Positions 30,871-39,564 of a stretch of DNA of 55,565 nt are shown piece by piece (the stretch's first letter is position 1; every line of letters begins with the position of its first letter). This DNA is from Chloroflexaceae bacterium. GTDB taxonomy: Bacteria; Chloroflexota; Chloroflexia; Chloroflexales; Chloroflexaceae. The translations under genes and the position numbers were made by a program. Location: contig JANQID010000085.1 in the NCBI GenBank assembly GCA_028282325.1, forward strand, positions 1 through 55,565, read 5' to 3'. The notes beneath the pieces were generated by a model, which worked only from the letters and a program-made list of their open reading frames with translations, was not told where the DNA came from and did not search any database.

Positions 30871-30899
30871 ATAGTAGCACGAGGCTATAGGCATGTCAA
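30871..30899 (-). promoter_or_regulatory. Promoter for the tRNA-tilS-hpt unit
   Basis: On the minus strand, consensus TTGACA (30899-30894), a 17-bp spacer and TACTAT (30876-30871). Transcription would begin about 45 bp before the tRNA. The -35 overlaps the stop codon of the M20-like gene upstream. Confidence 0.6.
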
Positions 30900-32242
30900 A
30901 TAGCAGCAGCTTTCAAGACGGTTCGCAGCATAATTTCAGACAGCAGATGGCTATGCCGAACCAAATCTTCCAGAGGTAGATGTTCATCAGGCGCACAGAC
31001 AGCGCTATCATAGCGTGACAGCCCCACTGAAGCAACCGGGACACCAAATTGCTGCACGAAGATTTGCAACGGCTGGGTAAATGGGCCAGATGGCAGAACC
31101 GTCAATGGCGCGCCGTAGATATGCGCGCCGACGGAAGCGATCTGCTCGATAAAAGGCGGGTTGGCATCCGTTCGCGTCGGCGGGTATGCGCCGGGCAGCA
31201 TTTCAACATCAACAAAATCGATATTCTTTGCGCGCAAGTGTTCACGGAGGAGGCAGAAAATGTCATCAGGCAGTTGTTGCGGAACGAGTTGAAAATCCAA
31301 CATTGCCATTGCTGCCGAGGGAATTCCGGGCAGTTCGCTGTATGGCTCACTTATCAGCGACGTCAGATTGCATGTCGGCAACGTGACCTCGGCACGAATG
31401 AGCGCCGAGCCACTCATGCTAAACAAGAACGCGGGCGCATTCCAGGCGGCCAATCGCCCAGCTTCATCAAGGCGCACTCTACGAAGCGCAGCATTCTCAT
31501 CCCGACTCGGCCCGGTGACGCTGTCGTAAAACCCTTCGATGCGGATGTCTTCATCTTCGCCTTTGATCTGATTCAACACCCAAGCTAACCGCCAGAGCGG
31601 ATTGTGGACGCTGGAGGCCAGACCTGCCGGCAGCGTCTGGCGTGATCCCCGCGCGGTGAGACACACGCGCAGAAGTCCCTTGCTCCCACTATAACAAAAT
31701 GGCCGCCCATCGACATCACGTTCGCCGCCCGTGGCCAGACAGGCATGCGCCTTCAGCTTTGGAGGCCAGGACGCAAGCGCCTGGGCAAGATGCGGACTTC
31801 CACTCAAGTATTCACCTTCTGCTACGATGACAACACCGCAAGGAAGCTCGCCATCTTGCTGCATCAGCGTACGCAGCGCAGCGAGGTGAGCAACCAACGG
31901 TCCCTTGCCATGGGCGACGCCTCGTCCATACACATACCCATCACGCTCGGCAAGTTGGAACGGCTCATGCGACCAGGCACGCCATGGGCCGGGCGGAGAC
32001 GTATCGTAATGATGATAGAGCAGCAGATTGAAAGGACTGCGCCCTGCACGCCAACCGATCACTACCGGCGCTCCAGGAGTAGGAGCGATTATTGTGGTCA
32101 ATCCGCTCTGTCGCAGCATTCTGGCAACCAGATCAGCCGCAGATGCAAACTCGTCCTGCTGGCCAGCGCTAGACGGTTGCGCACACAATGCCCGCAAATC
32201 GGCAAGCAGTTGATCAAGCGCGTTGATCATAGGAGCGGTCAC
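30896..32242 (-). CDS. M20-fold metallopeptidase homologue lacking catalytic residues
   Basis: A 448-residue protein with the overall order of M20 dipeptidases: LLLYHHYDTSP (73-83), YVYGRGVAHGKGP (103-115), AEGEYLSGS (141-149), a dimerisation domain with ASSVHNPLWRLAW, and the C-terminal CAPDEHLPLEDL. Compared with the family (HYD..P, GRGxxDDKG, EGEEExGS, DTG), His78, Asp80 and the final His are kept. The metal-bridging Asp is His111, the general base and its neighbouring ligand Glu-Glu are Tyr145-Leu146, and the Asp ligand is Ala170. It probably cannot bind two zinc ions or hydrolyse peptides in the standard way. The frame is intact, so it is a pseudoenzyme rather than a pseudogene. The start could also be ATG 32230. 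Confidence 0.8.
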   Translation of the reverse strand: MTAPMINALDQLLADLRALCAQPSSAGQQDEFASAADLVARMLRQSGLTTIIAPTPGAPVVIGWRAGRSPFNLLLYHHYDTSPPGPWRAWSHEPFQLAERDGYVYGRGVAHGKGPLVAHLAALRTLMQQDGELPCGVVIVAEGEYLSGSPHLAQALASWPPKLKAHACLATGGERDVDGRPFCYSGSKGLLRVCLTARGSRQTLPAGLASSVHNPLWRLAWVLNQIKGEDEDIRIEGFYDSVTGPSRDENAALRRVRLDEAGRLAAWNAPAFLFSMSGSALIRAEVTLPTCNLTSLISEPYSELPGIPSAAMAMLDFQLVPQQLPDDIFCLLREHLRAKNIDFVDVEMLPGAYPPTRTDANPPFIEQIASVGAHIYGAPLTVLPSGPFTQPLQIFVQQFGVPVASVGLSRYDSAVCAPDEHLPLEDLVRHSHLLSEIMLRTVLKAAAI

Positions 32243-33154: not shown

Positions 33155-35167
33155 ATGATGCGTACTATGTTCAAGCGCACCTTTGCAGGCGCTATGCTGA
33201 TGGGGCTGCTCATTCCGCTGTTGGCGGCATGCGGTGGCCAGGCCGAACCCCAGGTCATTCGCGAGACCGTCGTTGTCCGCGAGACTGTTGAACCGCAGAT
33301 TATCGAGCAGACCGTCATCGTTGAAGCGCCCACCGCTGAAGAAGGCGCTACCGAAGAAGGCGCTGAGGAACCAGCCGCGTCCACCGAGTCCTACACGACG
33401 CCGCACCCCATTTTGGACGATCTTCGTGTTCGCCAGGCCATTGCTTATTGCGCCGATCGCTCTGAAGTCGCCAAGTCGGTCTACTCATTCCTCGACGATG
33501 AACAGCGCGAGGAGTTGTTGATGGACACCTTCCTCCCCAAGACCCACTGGGCTGCGGCCGGCGAGGATGACGGCATCACCGTCTATCCCTTCGACCCCGA
33601 ACAGGGCCAGGCGTTGTTGGATGAGGCCGGATGGACGCTGGACGAAGGCGATACCGTACGTATGAACGAAGCCGGCGAACCGCTGACGCTGAAGTTCACC
33701 ACCACCAACGCGCAGTTCCGCCAGACATGGGCGGCAGTGTTCGAGCAGCAACTGCTTGACAACTGCGGCATCCAGATTATCCGCACCCACGCGCCGGGAT
33801 CCTGGTGGTTCGGCGGCACAACCGGCCTGCAGCGCCGCGACTTCGAACTCGGCGCGTTCGCCTGGGTCGGCGAAACCGATCCGAAGGGCCAAACACTCTA
33901 CGCCTGCAACCAGATCCCATTGCCTTCGAACAGCTGGGAAGGCCAGAACTATATGGGCTGGTGCAACGAGACCGCCAGCCAGGCAATTATCGCGGCGAAC
34001 AACACGCTGGATCGGGACGAGCGCATCGCGCAATACCAGATCTTCCAGCAGGAATTCACCAAGGATATGCCGAGCCTGCCGATGTTCAACCGGCTTGAGG
34101 TCGCGGCTGCGTCCGGCAACGTCGAAAACTACAACCCTGATCCCACCGAGTACTACACCAAGAACATTTATGAGTGGACCTTGACGGACGGCGGTGATAC
34201 TGTCGTACTGGGCATGACCCAGGAACCGGCTTCGATGTTCACCCAGAATGAGAGCGCGGCGGTACAGCGCATCGCTGCTTACCTCATCGGCAACTTCGGG
34301 CACCAGGGCTTCGCCTTCACCGCTGCTGATTACGACTATCAGGCGCTGGCGCTGACCGAACTGCCCTCGATTGAGAATGGCGGCGCGGCGCTTGAAGCAG
34401 TCGAAGTCAACGCGGGCGATATGGTCTGGAGCGTTGACGGCGACGCCGTTGAACTGGCCGATGGCGTCGAAGTCATCAACGCCGACGGTGAGACGGTCGC
34501 CTTTGAAGGCGATGCGATAACAATGAATCAACTCAGCGTTACCTTCGAGTACCAGGAAGGCATCACCTGGGAAGATGGCGAGCCGCTGAAGGCCGCGGAC
34601 TTCGAACTGGGCAACGCGATCGAGTGCGATCCCGAAGCCGGCACGATTAGTTTGCAAATCTGCAACTCGCGCCAGGAGATCGAGTACGTCAGCGACAACT
34701 CGTACACGATCACCTACCTGCCCGGTGTGCAGTGGCCGGAATACTCGGTCTACTCGCTGTATGCCTATCCGTCGCACCAGGAACTGAGCGATGGTCGCAC
34801 GCTGGCCGATGTTCCGGCTGACGAGTGGTCAAGCTTGCCGGAGATCGCTGAGGCGCCATTGAGCCTTGGCCCGTATCGCCTGGTCGAATGGGAGAAGGGC
34901 CAGCGTATGGTCTTCGAAGCCAACCCGAACTACTACGGCGGCGAACCGGCAATCCAGAACGTCATCATCCAGTTCTTCGAGGACACCAACCAGGCGGTGG
35001 CCCAGTTGCTGACCGGCGATGTTGACGTGCTTGGCCGCGAGACTCTGGGCGCTGGTCCGGAGGTTGAGGCGGTGCTGCAGGAAGCTGAGGAGGGCACAGA
35101 TCTTCAGGTCTTCACCCTGGCCAGCCCGACCTGGGAGCACGTTGATATAAACCTCTTCACCAAATAA
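33155..35167 (+). CDS. Circularly permuted family 5 solute-binding lipoprotein
   Basis: A substrate-binding lipoprotein of a peptide-type ABC importer, 670 residues from ATG 33155 (AGGAGG 10 bp upstream). The signal peptide ends at the lipobox LLAAC with Cys26. A V/E/T-rich linker (30-80) follows. Residues 84-344 (HPILDDLRVRQAIAYCADRS, then YPFDPEQGQALLDEAGW, DPKGQTLYACNQIP and MPSLPMFNR) are the half normally found at the C-terminus of SBP_bac_5 proteins. Residues 348-670 (GDTVVLGMTQEPASM, YQEGITWEDGEPLKAADFEL, GPYRLVEWEKGQRMVFEANP, ASPTWEHVDINLF) are the normal N-terminal half. The protein ends exactly where family members continue into D-[VL]-R-V-R-Q. The frame is intact and the permease genes follow. 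Ligand unknown, probably peptides. Confidence 0.88.
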   Translation: MMRTMFKRTFAGAMLMGLLIPLLAACGGQAEPQVIRETVVVRETVEPQIIEQTVIVEAPTAEEGATEEGAEEPAASTESYTTPHPILDDLRVRQAIAYCADRSEVAKSVYSFLDDEQREELLMDTFLPKTHWAAAGEDDGITVYPFDPEQGQALLDEAGWTLDEGDTVRMNEAGEPLTLKFTTTNAQFRQTWAAVFEQQLLDNCGIQIIRTHAPGSWWFGGTTGLQRRDFELGAFAWVGETDPKGQTLYACNQIPLPSNSWEGQNYMGWCNETASQAIIAANNTLDRDERIAQYQIFQQEFTKDMPSLPMFNRLEVAAASGNVENYNPDPTEYYTKNIYEWTLTDGGDTVVLGMTQEPASMFTQNESAAVQRIAAYLIGNFGHQGFAFTAADYDYQALALTELPSIENGGAALEAVEVNAGDMVWSVDGDAVELADGVEVINADGETVAFEGDAITMNQLSVTFEYQEGITWEDGEPLKAADFELGNAIECDPEAGTISLQICNSRQEIEYVSDNSYTITYLPGVQWPEYSVYSLYAYPSHQELSDGRTLADVPADEWSSLPEIAEAPLSLGPYRLVEWEKGQRMVFEANPNYYGGEPAIQNVIIQFFEDTNQAVAQLLTGDVDVLGRETLGAGPEVEAVLQEAEEGTDLQVFTLASPTWEHVDINLFTK

Positions 35168-35251: not shown

Positions 35252-36463
35252 GTGAGCGGCGCAATGACGACTTTCCTTGTACGACGTTTGTTTCAGATGT
35301 TGGTGGTGATTACCCTCTCGGCAATGGCCTCCTACGGTCTCCTTTACCTGGCGCCCGGCGGTCCGCTGCTTTTCCTTCAGCAATTGCAGCGCAGCGGCCC
35401 CCAGGCAGTCACTGAAGAAGACATCGCTCGCATCAAAGCGCGCTTCGAGCTTGATCTCTATTTGCCCTATCGATTCACCCGCTGGTTTGTGGGCTTGCCG
35501 CGTGGCCCGATTACGGTCGGAGACCAGGCGTTTTTCTCCGATCTCCAGGTCGGGTGCGCTATTCCCGGTCAGGTGCGCCTTCGCTACCCCGATGGCCGCA
35601 TAGAGTTTATCGAAGAGGGATGCGAAGTCCCCGTCACAATGGCCGATCTCGAAGGGCGCGACGTGAGCCGCGGCGTTATGCTCGGTGATTTCGGTGATTC
35701 CCAGGTCATCCTGCGCGATCGTCCGATCAGCATCTTGATCGAGAGTCGTCTCTGGTACACTCTGGCTTTGATGGGCGTTTCGACGTTGCTGGCCATTCTC
35801 ATCGGCGTCCCGATCGGCATTTATTCGGCGGTGCGGCAATATTCCCGGTTTGACTACGCGATGACGACGATGGCATTTGTTGGCTCATCGCTACCGACGT
35901 TCTTTTTTGGCATCATTGCCATTCTCCTCTTCGCCATCATCGCCAAAGAAGCGGGACTGCCCTATTTGCCGCCGGGCAACGCAACCGCAAATCGAGACTA
36001 TGTCATTCCGCTCATCGGCACGGTGGAAGCCCGTTCAACGCTGGATTACGTGTTACACTTTATTATGCCCTGCGCGGTGTTGACCTTCGTGAATATCGCC
36101 CAGTGGAGTCGTTTTGTTCGCACGAGTATGCTCGAAGTGTTGCGCCAGGACTATGTGCGCACCGCACGAGCCAAGGGCGTTCGCGAGCGACTGGTGATTA
36201 CCAAACACGCGATGCGCAACGCGCTGATACCGTTTGTCACCCTGCTGGCAGGCGTGCTGCCCACGCTGATCGGCGGGGCGGCGATTACCGAAGCGGTGTT
36301 CAACTGGCCCGGACTGGGGCGCTTGCTGATCGATGCGCTGGAACGGAGCGATTACACCGTCGCAATGTCATTAACGTTTTTGAGTATTTTGATGCTGCTG
36401 ATCGGATATCTGATCTCCGACATTCTCTACACTGTAGTAGACCCTCGCATCCGCTTGTCGTAG
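35252..36463 (+). CDS. ABC transporter permease, DppB type, with periplasmic insert
   Basis: An inner-membrane permease of the peptide/nickel importer family. It has an N-terminal helix (MTTFLVRRLFQMLVVITLSA), the core helices from about 155 on, and the ATPase-contact loop EVLRQDYVRTARAKGVRE. It is 403 residues, against the usual 310-340. The extra length is an external segment of about 60 residues between helices 1 and 2, containing Cys102 and Cys124 (DLQVGCAIPG, FIEEGCEVP). The start is GTG 35252 or ATG 35264. It probably pairs with the next gene product. The insert may contact the unusual binding protein, which is an inference. Confidence 0.9.
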   Translation: MSGAMTTFLVRRLFQMLVVITLSAMASYGLLYLAPGGPLLFLQQLQRSGPQAVTEEDIARIKARFELDLYLPYRFTRWFVGLPRGPITVGDQAFFSDLQVGCAIPGQVRLRYPDGRIEFIEEGCEVPVTMADLEGRDVSRGVMLGDFGDSQVILRDRPISILIESRLWYTLALMGVSTLLAILIGVPIGIYSAVRQYSRFDYAMTTMAFVGSSLPTFFFGIIAILLFAIIAKEAGLPYLPPGNATANRDYVIPLIGTVEARSTLDYVLHFIMPCAVLTFVNIAQWSRFVRTSMLEVLRQDYVRTARAKGVRERLVITKHAMRNALIPFVTLLAGVLPTLIGGAAITEAVFNWPGLGRLLIDALERSDYTVAMSLTFLSILMLLIGYLISDILYTVVDPRIRLS

Positions 36464-36472
36464 GAGTACACT

Positions 36473-37468
36473 ATGGCGACGACATCCGCTACTACCGCGA
36501 CTGAGCAGCCGCGCAAGCGACGTTCCGAGGGTCAATGGGCAATCGTCTTTCGACGCTTTCGACGCCACCGTATGGCGATGGTCAGCCTGGGCATCATCAC
36601 GGTCATTCTGCTGGCCTCGTTCCTGGCCCCTCTGATCGCACCGTTTGAACCCGACGAAATCGGCCTGGGGCGCAATTATCTACCGCCGATGAGCGTCAAC
36701 GCTGAGACGGGACAGTTCCATATTCTCGGCACCGATCATCTCGGTCGCGACTACTTTACCCGCGTGATCTACGCCGGACGCGTATCATTGACCGTGGCAT
36801 TGCTCGTGGCGACTATCTCGTCAGTCATCGGCATCCTGCTCGGCGTTCTTGCGGGATATTTCGGCGGCTGGGTCGATATTGTCATCTCGCGCTTTTTGGA
36901 ATTCATCGCAACCTTCCCCGCGCTGGTTATTCTGCTGATTATCGCGGCGATCTTTCTGGAGAACGAGCAGTTTATCAACATTCCCGACTTCATCCTGGCG
37001 CCGCTTTCGGCGGTTCTGGCCGTCTCCGAGCGCGAGACAAAGCAAGTGGTATTAATTATCCTGACCCTGGCGTTGCTGAACTGGATCATTCCGGCGCGTT
37101 TTATGCGCGGTATGGCGCTAACGGTGCGCGAACAACTCTATATCGAGTCGTCACGGGCGCTCGGCGCATCACACTGGTTCATCATTCGCAAGCACACGTT
37201 TCCAAACTCGCTGCCCCCTTTGATCGTTGAATACACCCTGGCCGTGAATACGGCGCTGGTGTTTGAGTCGGCGCTGAGTTTCCTGGGCTTCGGCATTCAG
37301 GATCCGACGCCAACGTGGGGCAATATGCTGGCATTCGCCAACAGCTATATGTTTAATCACCCGTGGATGCCGCTGGTGCCGGGGTTGCCGATTCTGCTGG
37401 CTTCGCTGGCGATCAACTATATCGGCGACGGGCTGCGCGACGCCCTGGATACGCGGTTGCAGTTGTAG
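36473..37468 (+). CDS. ABC transporter permease, DppC type
   Basis: The second permease subunit, 331 residues. It has the N-terminal domain of the family (FRRHRMAMVSLGIITVILLA, LAPLIAPFEPDE), the GTDHLGRDYFTRVIYAGRVS motif characteristic of DppC/OppC, about six membrane helices, and the coupling loop EQLYIESSRALGASHWFIIR. The segment around 165-190 (ENEQFINIPDFILAPLSAVL) is longer than usual between helices. ATG 36473 is 9 bp after the previous stop. It works with DppB-like and two ATPases in one importer. Confidence 0.93.
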   Translation: MATTSATTATEQPRKRRSEGQWAIVFRRFRRHRMAMVSLGIITVILLASFLAPLIAPFEPDEIGLGRNYLPPMSVNAETGQFHILGTDHLGRDYFTRVIYAGRVSLTVALLVATISSVIGILLGVLAGYFGGWVDIVISRFLEFIATFPALVILLIIAAIFLENEQFINIPDFILAPLSAVLAVSERETKQVVLIILTLALLNWIIPARFMRGMALTVREQLYIESSRALGASHWFIIRKHTFPNSLPPLIVEYTLAVNTALVFESALSFLGFGIQDPTPTWGNMLAFANSYMFNHPWMPLVPGLPILLASLAINYIGDGLRDALDTRLQL

Positions 37469-37531: not shown

Positions 37532-38548
37532 GTGACTATCGAGCCGATTCAGTCTCCTCACCCGCTGGAGGAGACGCAACCTCAAAACGCACACCTGTTG
37601 CTTAAAGTGGAAGGGCTCAAGACGTACTTCTTCACCGAGGAAGGCGTCGTGCAAGCCGTGGATGGCATCGATCTCACTATTCGCCGCGGCGAGGCGTTGA
37701 GCATCGTCGGCGAAAGCGGCAGCGGCAAGAGCGTCACATCGTTGTCGATTATGCGCCTGATCTCGTCGCCCGGCAAGATCGTTGAGGGAAGCATTACGTT
37801 TGATAACACTGATTTGCTAGCGCTCAATGACGAAGCAATGCGCCAGATCCGCGGCAGCCGAATATCGATGATCTTTCAGCAGCCAACGACATGCCTCAAC
37901 CCGGTCTTCCGCGTCGGTGAACAGATCATCGAGGCGTTGAGCATCCACCGATCGATCGCAGCCACAGAAGCTGAGCAGCGCTGCATCGAGTTGCTGTCGA
38001 TGGTCGGATTGCCCGACCCGGCCCGACGGATGCGCCAGTATCCGCATGAGCTATCCGGCGGGCAAGCCCAACGTGTGATGATCGCGATGGCGCTGGCCTG
38101 TAACCCGGAACTTCTCATCGCCGATGAGCCGACGACGGCGCTCGATGTCACTATTCAAGCGCAGATCCTGGATCTCATGCGCACGCTGCGCGAGAAGATC
38201 GACACTGCGATTATTTTGATCACCCACGACATGGGCGTGGTCGCCGAGATGGCCGATAATGTCGCCGTTATGTATGCGGGACAGATCGTTGAATACGCCG
38301 ACGTGAACAGCATCTTCGCCGAACCCCGGCATCCCTACACGCAGGGCTTGCTTGGCTCTATGCCGATGCTGGGCGAAGTACGTGAAGAATTGGCCGTGAT
38401 TCCCGGTGTGGTGCCAAGCTTGATCAACCCGCCCACAGGTTGTCGCTTTGCCGAACGCTGCCCCCATCGTTTTGACAAGTGTGACACCGAGCCGCCGCTG
38501 CTGAGCATAGACGGCGGGCGTAAAGTACGTTGCTGGCTATACGATTAG
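37532..38548 (+). CDS. Peptide ABC transporter ATP-binding protein, DppD type
   Basis: A 338-residue ATPase of the oligopeptide importer class. It has Walker A GESGSGKS (60-67), signature LSGGQAQR, Walker [15 protein letters not shown], and H-loop ITHDMG. The C-terminal oligopeptide-transporter domain ([20 protein letters not shown]) carries the family's Cys cluster, which binds an iron-sulfur centre in some members. It starts at GTG 37532 after TGGAGG. It forms a heterodimer with the next gene product. Confidence 0.94.
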
Positions 38549-38562
38549 TAGCAGGGATGCTA

Positions 38563-39564
38563 ATGAATGCCGCGTTGACCTCACCAGAACAGAATGATCT
38601 CTTGCTTGAAGTTACCGATCTGAAAAAGCATTTTCCGATCAAGGGCGGCATCTTGCGGCGCACGGTAGCGGCGGTCAAAGCCGTCGACGGTGTCAGTTTC
38701 AAGGTGCGCCGCGGCGAGACGCTTGGTCTGGTCGGCGAGAGCGGATGCGGCAAAACCACAACCGGACGGACGATACTGCGCCTCGAACCGGCTACATCGG
38801 GGGATGTGCAGTTTGAAGGGCAAGATGTACTGCGCGCGTCGGGCAAGCAGATCAAGACTTTGCGCCGCGATATGCAGATTATCTTTCAGGATCCGTATGC
38901 CTCGCTCGATCCGCGCATCACGATCGGTGAAAGCATCGCCGAAGGGCTGACCATCCATCGCATCGGATCCGCCGCCGAACGCATCGAACGCGTGCGCGAG
39001 GTTCTCGACAAGGTCGGCTTGCACGCGAACCATATGCAGCGGTTTCCTCACGAGTTTTCCGGCGGCCAGCGCCAGCGCATCGGCATCGCCCGCGCTCTGA
39101 TTATGAATCCCAAGCTTATCGTCTGCGATGAACCGGTGTCGGCGCTTGATGTAAGCATCCAGTCGCAGGTACTGAATCTGTTGCGCAACTTGCAGCACGA
39201 ATTTGGGCTGACCTATCTGTTCATTGCCCACAACCTGAGCGTCGTTGAGCATATCAGCGATCGCGTCGGCGTGATGTACCTCGGTAAAATTGTCGAACTC
39301 GCCGATCGCGACGATCTCTTCCAGGAGCCGTTGCATCCTTACTCCAAAGCGTTGATCTCAGCCATACCGGTGCCCAATCCGCAGCGCAATCGTGAGCGCA
39401 TTATGCTTCAGGGAGATGTGCCCAGTCCGATCAACCCGCCTTCGGGGTGCCGTTTTCATCCGCGTTGCTGGATAGCGCAGAGCATTTGCCGCGAGGAAGA
39501 ACCCGCCTTTGAGGAGAAAAAGCGCGGTCACTGGGCCGCATGCCACTTCGCCGGACAATTCTAG
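38563..39564 (+). CDS. Peptide ABC transporter ATP-binding protein, DppF type
   Basis: The second ATPase of the importer, 333 residues from ATG 38563 (AGGG 7 bp upstream; ATG 38557 is an alternative). It has Walker A GESGCGKT (58-65), signature FSGGQRQR, Walker [15 protein letters not shown], and the C-terminal [39 protein letters not shown] at the N-terminus is typical of DppF/OppF. It completes the five-component transporter whose genes begin at 33155. Confidence 0.94.

Follow-up and report, generated by a model that had tools for sequence, protein, structure and literature searches.

A naturally circularly permuted substrate-binding protein at the head of a Dpp/Opp-type importer operon in Chloroflexota

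The locus and the reversed binding protein

The window, which means the whole stretch of 55,565 nucleotides analysed here (contig JANQID010000085.1 of a Chloroflexaceae bacterium), contains a gene for a substrate-binding protein (SBP) of the SBP_bac_5 family, followed by two permease genes and two ATPase genes, and a divergent peptidase gene lies on the other side. The features are listed with their evidence in brackets.

30896..32242, - strand: divergent M20-family peptidase gene (PF01546), a neighbour in many related loci
33155..35167, + strand: gene for a circularly permuted SBP_bac_5 protein of 670 aa, a putative lipoprotein (intact open reading frame, reversed Pfam order, conserved family)
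33155..33232, + strand: predicted lipoprotein signal peptide through Cys26 of the lipobox LLAAC (sequence, conservation in homologues)
33233..33394, + strand: low-complexity tether, roughly residues 27-80, ahead of the former C-terminal lobe (sequence, pLDDT mostly <60)
33404..34186, + strand: former C-terminal lobe, residues 84-344, first in the chain (Pfam profile 210-358, superposition on AppA)
34178..34204, + strand: new junction between the old C-terminus (..NIYEWTLTDG) and the old mature N-terminus (GDTVVLGMTQEP..) (unpermuted sisters L122, L217 and L218)
34190..35164, + strand: former N-terminal lobe, residues 346-670, second in the chain (Pfam profile 14-175, superposition on CtaP)
35132..35152, + strand: crossover strand WEHVDIN, now the C-terminus (conservation, comparison with the sisters)
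35264..36463, + strand: DppB/OppB-type permease (PF00528), found 3' of the permuted SBP in most sufficiently long loci
36473..37468, + strand: DppC/OppC-type permease (PF00528 and OppC_N)
37532..38548, + strand: DppD/OppD-type ATPase (ABC_tran and oligo_HPY)
38557..39564, + strand: DppF/OppF-type ATPase (ABC_tran and oligo_HPY; over the NCBIfam subfamily cut-off PRK11308)

A sequence-only reading of this DNA had claimed that the two halves of the SBP are swapped, with the C-terminal half first and the chain ending at the interlobe crossover, and that the gene, with an intact frame and a strong ribosome site, opens a complete ABC operon. All of this was borne out. The 670-aa frame is intact, the strong ribosome site upstream of it is caggaggaaaag, and the SBP gene is accompanied by two permeases and two ATPases. 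When each half was aligned to the profile separately, residues 84-344 matched positions 210-358 of SBP_bac_5 (E 4e-17) and residues 345-670 matched positions 14-175 (E 3e-24), and the boundaries proposed from sequence (84-344 and 348-670, with the junction near 34150-34210) are right within a few residues. The protein stops with the WEHVDIN strand, in which W660, E661, H662 and D664 are invariant or near-invariant in the homologue alignment. The solved structures of AppA, the Thermus protein 2d5w and DppA also align to the two halves in reversed order.

To place the protein among its paralogues, we scanned the whole genome and found 10 SBP_bac_5 genes, nine of which have the normal order; only the gene at 33155-35167 is reversed, profile positions 208-358 coming first and 15-175 second. 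Its product is a permuted variant and not a standard co-linear member of the family. The whole protein scores 146.8 bits against PF00496 (curated cut-off 32.4), and each half alone is also over the cut-off. PF00496 is the only family assignment that the sequence gives, and the protein stays below the NCBIfam equivalog cut-offs of Opp4A (140 bits vs 650) and DppA_dipep (45 vs 1005). Automated annotation by profile score alone would give an ordinary family 5 SBP label, under which the permutation is hidden.

The residues A25-C26 are kept in at least 90% of 43 aligned homologues, and a lipobox-like motif occurs in 97 of 103 distinct homologues, which points to a secreted, lipid-anchored protein. 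An AlphaFold2 model, built from 43 aligned permuted homologues, predicts a confident two-lobed fold (mean pLDDT 87.7, pTM 0.82), with nearly all residues beyond the signal and tether above 80 pLDDT. The sequence-only reading had suggested comparing such a model with known binding proteins, and it turned out that each half superposes on the expected half: residues 83-345 of the model on residues 274-520 of AppA (1xoc; Z 23.7, rmsd 3.9, 244 aligned), and residues 345-660 on residues 37-280 of CtaP (5isu; Z 20.2, rmsd 2.1, 239 aligned; both with VIA-align). The best Foldseek matches are cluster C proteins, and among the fold matches listed there are cluster C proteins only and none of cluster B. 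Which lobe comes first in the chain should make no difference to the final fold. The predicted SBP fold is kept despite the permutation, and with it probably the Venus-flytrap action. The lipid tether would now enter at the hinge and C-lobe side instead of the N-lobe.

Thermus 2d5w, B. subtilis AppA (1xoc) and E. coli DppA (1dpp) share both lobes, the motifs and the folds of the halves with the permuted SBP, which also, as cluster C SBPs do, heads a BCDF importer operon. Unlike them, it has reversed lobes, new ends in the interlobe crossover and the old ends fused, and its anchor probably sits at the opposite side of the hinge.

Distribution and origin of the permutation

The search for the same order in other Chloroflexota, which had been proposed as a check, found it in relatives within Chloroflexia and in Anaerolineae. 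Co-linear full-length homologues with the same order and 60-70% identity occur in 39 of 61 genomes (the window's own and its relatives), with the one-contig genomes G029, G033 and G042 among them; the one-contig genome G065 is a further carrier. A scan of GTDB species genomes gave 80 loci that, judged by their titles, belong to Chloroflexia and Anaerolineae, and most of them hold full-length co-linear permuted homologues; the scan of genome contigs used short peptide patterns from one protein and so reaches close relatives only. Among 298 sampled genomes of the class of G065 (Anaerolineae, judged by the relatives of G065), 35 have a single match running across the joint. For the open reading frames (ORFs) of the fetched loci, classification with half-HMMs gave 163 permuted ORFs (107 distinct) and 69 canonical ones (50 distinct). 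In an earlier count of 133 permuted ORFs, the halves are joined with 0-3 residues in all except L126 (56 residues), and 111 of them stop exactly at the end of the N-half. The genomes searched of families f2 and f3, from the same order as the window's genome, have canonical proteins only and no permuted form, and a plasmid search with the permuted protein gave no match. In two loci, L161 (G298:C70) and L160 (G276), the permuted SBP frame is split in two by a frameshift or a sequencing error.

Misassembly, here the misjoining of two adjacent canonical SBP genes in a draft genome, had been named as what would overturn the permutation, and the source assembly is indeed a draft of 140 contigs while in some Anaerolineae the gene just upstream of the permuted SBP does encode a canonical one; but it has virtually no chance of being right, because independent genomes share the identical junction (more than 100 distinct sequences, the four one-contig genomes included), the permuted proteins form coherent trees, and the upstream canonical genes of Anaerolineae fall in a different clade.

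For the trees, the permuted halves were first returned to normal order. All permuted SBPs form one clade (bootstrap/SH-aLRT 100/100) nested inside the canonical proteins, so that they have a single origin. Closest to this clade stand the canonical proteins L122 (3604-5550), L217 and L218, one from each of three genomes, which group with it at 100/99. In the unpermuted sister L217, the mature protein starts with ADTLIIGMSQEPS, has the crossover SPTWEHMDFNTLARTNKDSKERKAPHPLLGDKTVRQAIA and ends with KPNATEYATWNIAEWEKG, and in the sisters the crossover strand continues into the C-lobe. In the window protein, the sequence after the tether starts with SYTTPHPILDDLRVRQAIAY, the junction is NPDPTEYYTKNIYEWTLTDGGDTVVLGMTQEPAS and the end is SPTWEHVDINLFTK. 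The ends and the crossover loop of the sisters thus correspond to the new junction and the new termini of the permuted protein, and from these sequences we conclude that the chain was cut in the crossover loop and rejoined at its old ends. Profile order, half structures, the conserved junction and the unpermuted sisters all support the circular permutation that had been read from the sequence.

In the preferred explanation, one permutation event in an ancestor within the canonical family joined the native C-terminus to the mature N-terminus and opened new ends in the first interlobe crossover, and the product spread vertically and/or horizontally across Chloroflexia and Anaerolineae. The route suggested earlier, in which the gene was duplicated in tandem and the two outer halves were then lost, is plausible; no intermediates of the form N-C-N-C or C-N-C were noticed among 232 two-half ORFs. 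In several Anaerolineae (L071, L085, L087, L103, L106, L150 and L153) the gene directly upstream of the permuted one encodes a canonical SBP. We considered this gene as the parental duplicate and rejected it for its position in another clade.

The halves might also have come from two different SBP genes, and in a comparison with the canonical paralogue on contig C63 of the same genome, conservation is higher in the C-half (39%) than in the N-half (24%). In both half-trees, however, the permuted clade has one and the same unpermuted neighbour: L122 is its direct sister in the C-half tree (100/99) and stands with L133 beside it in the N-half tree (91/81). Both halves therefore most likely derive from one parent protein, and we regard a chimera as very improbable.

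Whether such an arrangement had been described before was left undecided by the sequence-only reading, and the answer differs between clusters. For cluster B it is known: TpMglB-2 (Tp0684) of Treponema pallidum is a naturally permuted glucose-binding lipoprotein for which "cluster Bc" was proposed, and lipoproteins of its type also occur in other species (PMC4990184). For cluster C we found no published permuted protein in a literature search that left subscription journals mostly outside; the search for circular permutation with OppA found nothing, and that for Chloroflexus-type names with "circularly permuted" found nothing relevant. Both TpMglB-2 and the Chloroflexota protein are natural circular permutants of substrate-binding lipoproteins. 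In TpMglB-2 the first three N-lobe strands have shifted to the C-terminus and there is an additional, fourth crossover (PMC4990184), whereas the Chloroflexota protein, from the cluster C family, swaps whole lobes and goes together with a permease insert. The sequence-only reading had missed how widespread the arrangement is in Chloroflexota and that it has unpermuted sisters. Natural permutants with an unpermuted sister, an exact breakpoint and wide conservation are rare.

The importer operon, probable transport role and ligand

The gene order SBP-B-C-D-F recurs in most loci of sufficient length, and the two adjacent BPD_transp_1 permeases and two oligo_HPY ABC ATPases are those expected of a Dpp/Opp importer. 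The operon of families f2 and f3 combines ATPases close to those of the window (D about 64-74%, F about 73-76% identity) with a canonical SBP, and its permeases are less closely related (B 41-44%, C 37-46% identity). Two quick trees were built. In the tree of permease pairs, with the insert described below left out, all partners of permuted SBPs form one clade (100), while in the ATPase tree the Chloroflexales group together (100) whatever the SBP type. Read side by side, these trees suggest that SBP, B and C were co-inherited as one working unit.

It is well supported that the permuted protein acts as the SBP of the adjacent importer, and the earlier judgement that it looks functional gains good support from the conserved operon and the co-inheritance with the permeases. 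We hold with high confidence that this natural circular permutant of a cluster C SBP is the lipid-anchored receptor of a DppBCDF/Opp-type importer, with a single origin and its own permease pair. Such a receptor would trap the ligand between its two lobes and hand it over to BCDF.

The protein could instead have left transport and become a peptide sensor or scaffold, the permeases using another SBP, such as the orphan canonical protein of C63. An orthologue of the C63 protein ends the canonical operon in sister families, and no transporter genes were found in the DNA examined around the extended second Chloroflexus copy or the C-lobe-only derivatives (see below). However, at its loci the main permuted copy stands at the start of SBP-B-C-D-F, and it shares the history of permeases B and C, which makes a sensor or scaffold improbable. 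As for the second canonical SBP gene itself, it follows the ATPases of the orthologous operon in related families (L124, L125, L138 and L122). The window's genome has a relative of it (contig C63, L140) that stands alone: no importer genes were found near it.

With the transport role as the preferred reading, the ligand is probably peptide, as suggested by the M20 peptidase that adjoins the operon here and in many relatives. In DppA, Arg383 and Asp436 hold the ends of the dipeptide (PMC12136057). These residues align with Leu179 and Glu240 of the permuted SBP, and at the position of Glu240 most homologues have Gln. The clamp residues are thus unmatched, so ligand or binding mode probably differs from DppA, and binding of a dipeptide in the DppA manner is unlikely. 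Like E. coli DppABCDF (PMC12136057), the system has heteromeric B and C permeases, D and F ATPases, a separate SBP and a scoop region in B; unlike it, it has a permuted SBP, an extra cysteine hairpin after the B scoop and, by alignment, other residues in place of the dipeptide clamp. Transporters of this class have been studied extensively, so the permuted SBP is a natural means of asking if folding, hinge motion and docking depend on chain order and on the position of the anchor.

The permease hairpin and apparent derivatives of the permuted protein

The earlier account of the operon, that permease genes follow, was correct, but it missed an insert in the B permease that is correlated with the permuted SBP. 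Two further features are needed here.

35354..35485, + strand: stretch that aligns to the DppB scoop motif (PGGP...W), periplasmic between TM1 and TM2 (sequence position)
35510..35656, + strand: 49-aa permease insert, residues 83-131, a predicted beta-hairpin with Cys98 and Cys120 (alignment, model)

The insert has 41-54 aa (145 in one case), lies in the first periplasmic segment and comes directly after the scoop-aligned region. It is present in 106 of 106 permuted loci vs none of 8 canonical loci, and 105 of the 106 have two cysteines in it. In a wider count, 136 ORFs (94 distinct) bear the hairpin, every one beside a permuted SBP (split frames in L161), while it is absent from 26 ORFs (20 distinct), the measurable permeases of other operons. 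The B permeases of the unpermuted sisters L122 and L217 have no hairpin. Cys98 and Cys120 are invariant across 28 aligned permeases, and the AlphaFold2 model of the permease (pLDDT 81) places them on two long strands (95-107 and 113-125), where they might form a disulfide. The scoop of E. coli DppB lies in the cleft between the DppA lobes and contacts the SBP (PMC12136057). Since the insert adjoins the scoop-aligned segment, the hairpin is likely to touch the permuted SBP.

The co-occurrence suggests that hairpin and permuted SBP are co-adapted, and in the preferred explanation the hairpin is most likely a co-adapted contact to the receptor. Both features may stem from one event, so the association counts as one phylogenetic case: permuted SBPs and hairpin permeases each form one clade, and a perfect association may equal a single event. 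A hairpin unrelated to the permutation, with both merely inherited in one operon, is thus a serious possibility, to which we give somewhat less than an even chance. Against it, the insert directly follows what in DppABCDF is the SBP-contacting segment (PMC12136057), the two invariant cysteines survive much sequence change, and the closest measurable unpermuted operons (L122 and L217) are without the insert. The alternative, an obligate co-adapted pair, is put forward tentatively and we incline to doubt it in this full form: moving tether and ends to the hinge would have changed docking and opening, and the cysteine hairpin would have evolved in compensation, giving a distinct importer subclass of Chloroflexota. 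In this form, the permuted topology would also have permitted the loss of a lobe, leading to single-lobe and double-C-lobe proteins. The association itself links a change of SBP topology to a specific insert of the partner permease. At one locus, L070 (2245-3795, + strand), the permease insert has 145 aa and four cysteines, three times the usual length.

Apparent derivatives of the permuted protein were found at several loci. A second permuted SBP of Chloroflexus islandicus (L118, 5755-8220, + strand; the same as L127) has a C-terminal extension of about 157 aa, which has no Pfam match. Three proteins have the C-lobe only: L131 (1431-2675, - strand), L224 (2762-4195, + strand) and L225 (3652-5247, - strand). 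In each of them the C-lobe is followed by a WEHIDFNL strand and then by a shared beta-rich C-terminal extension, which is common to the full-length permuted L118; no ABC genes were found in the DNA examined around these three genes. The strand WEHID comes after the C-lobe only in the permuted order, so the N-lobe was apparently lost from a permuted ancestor, and the C-lobe-only and double-C-lobe proteins look like permuted proteins with the N-lobe internally deleted. The double form is L226 (2749-5055, + strand), a protein of 769 aa with two tandem C-lobes, WEHID[LF]NL after each of them and then the same extension.
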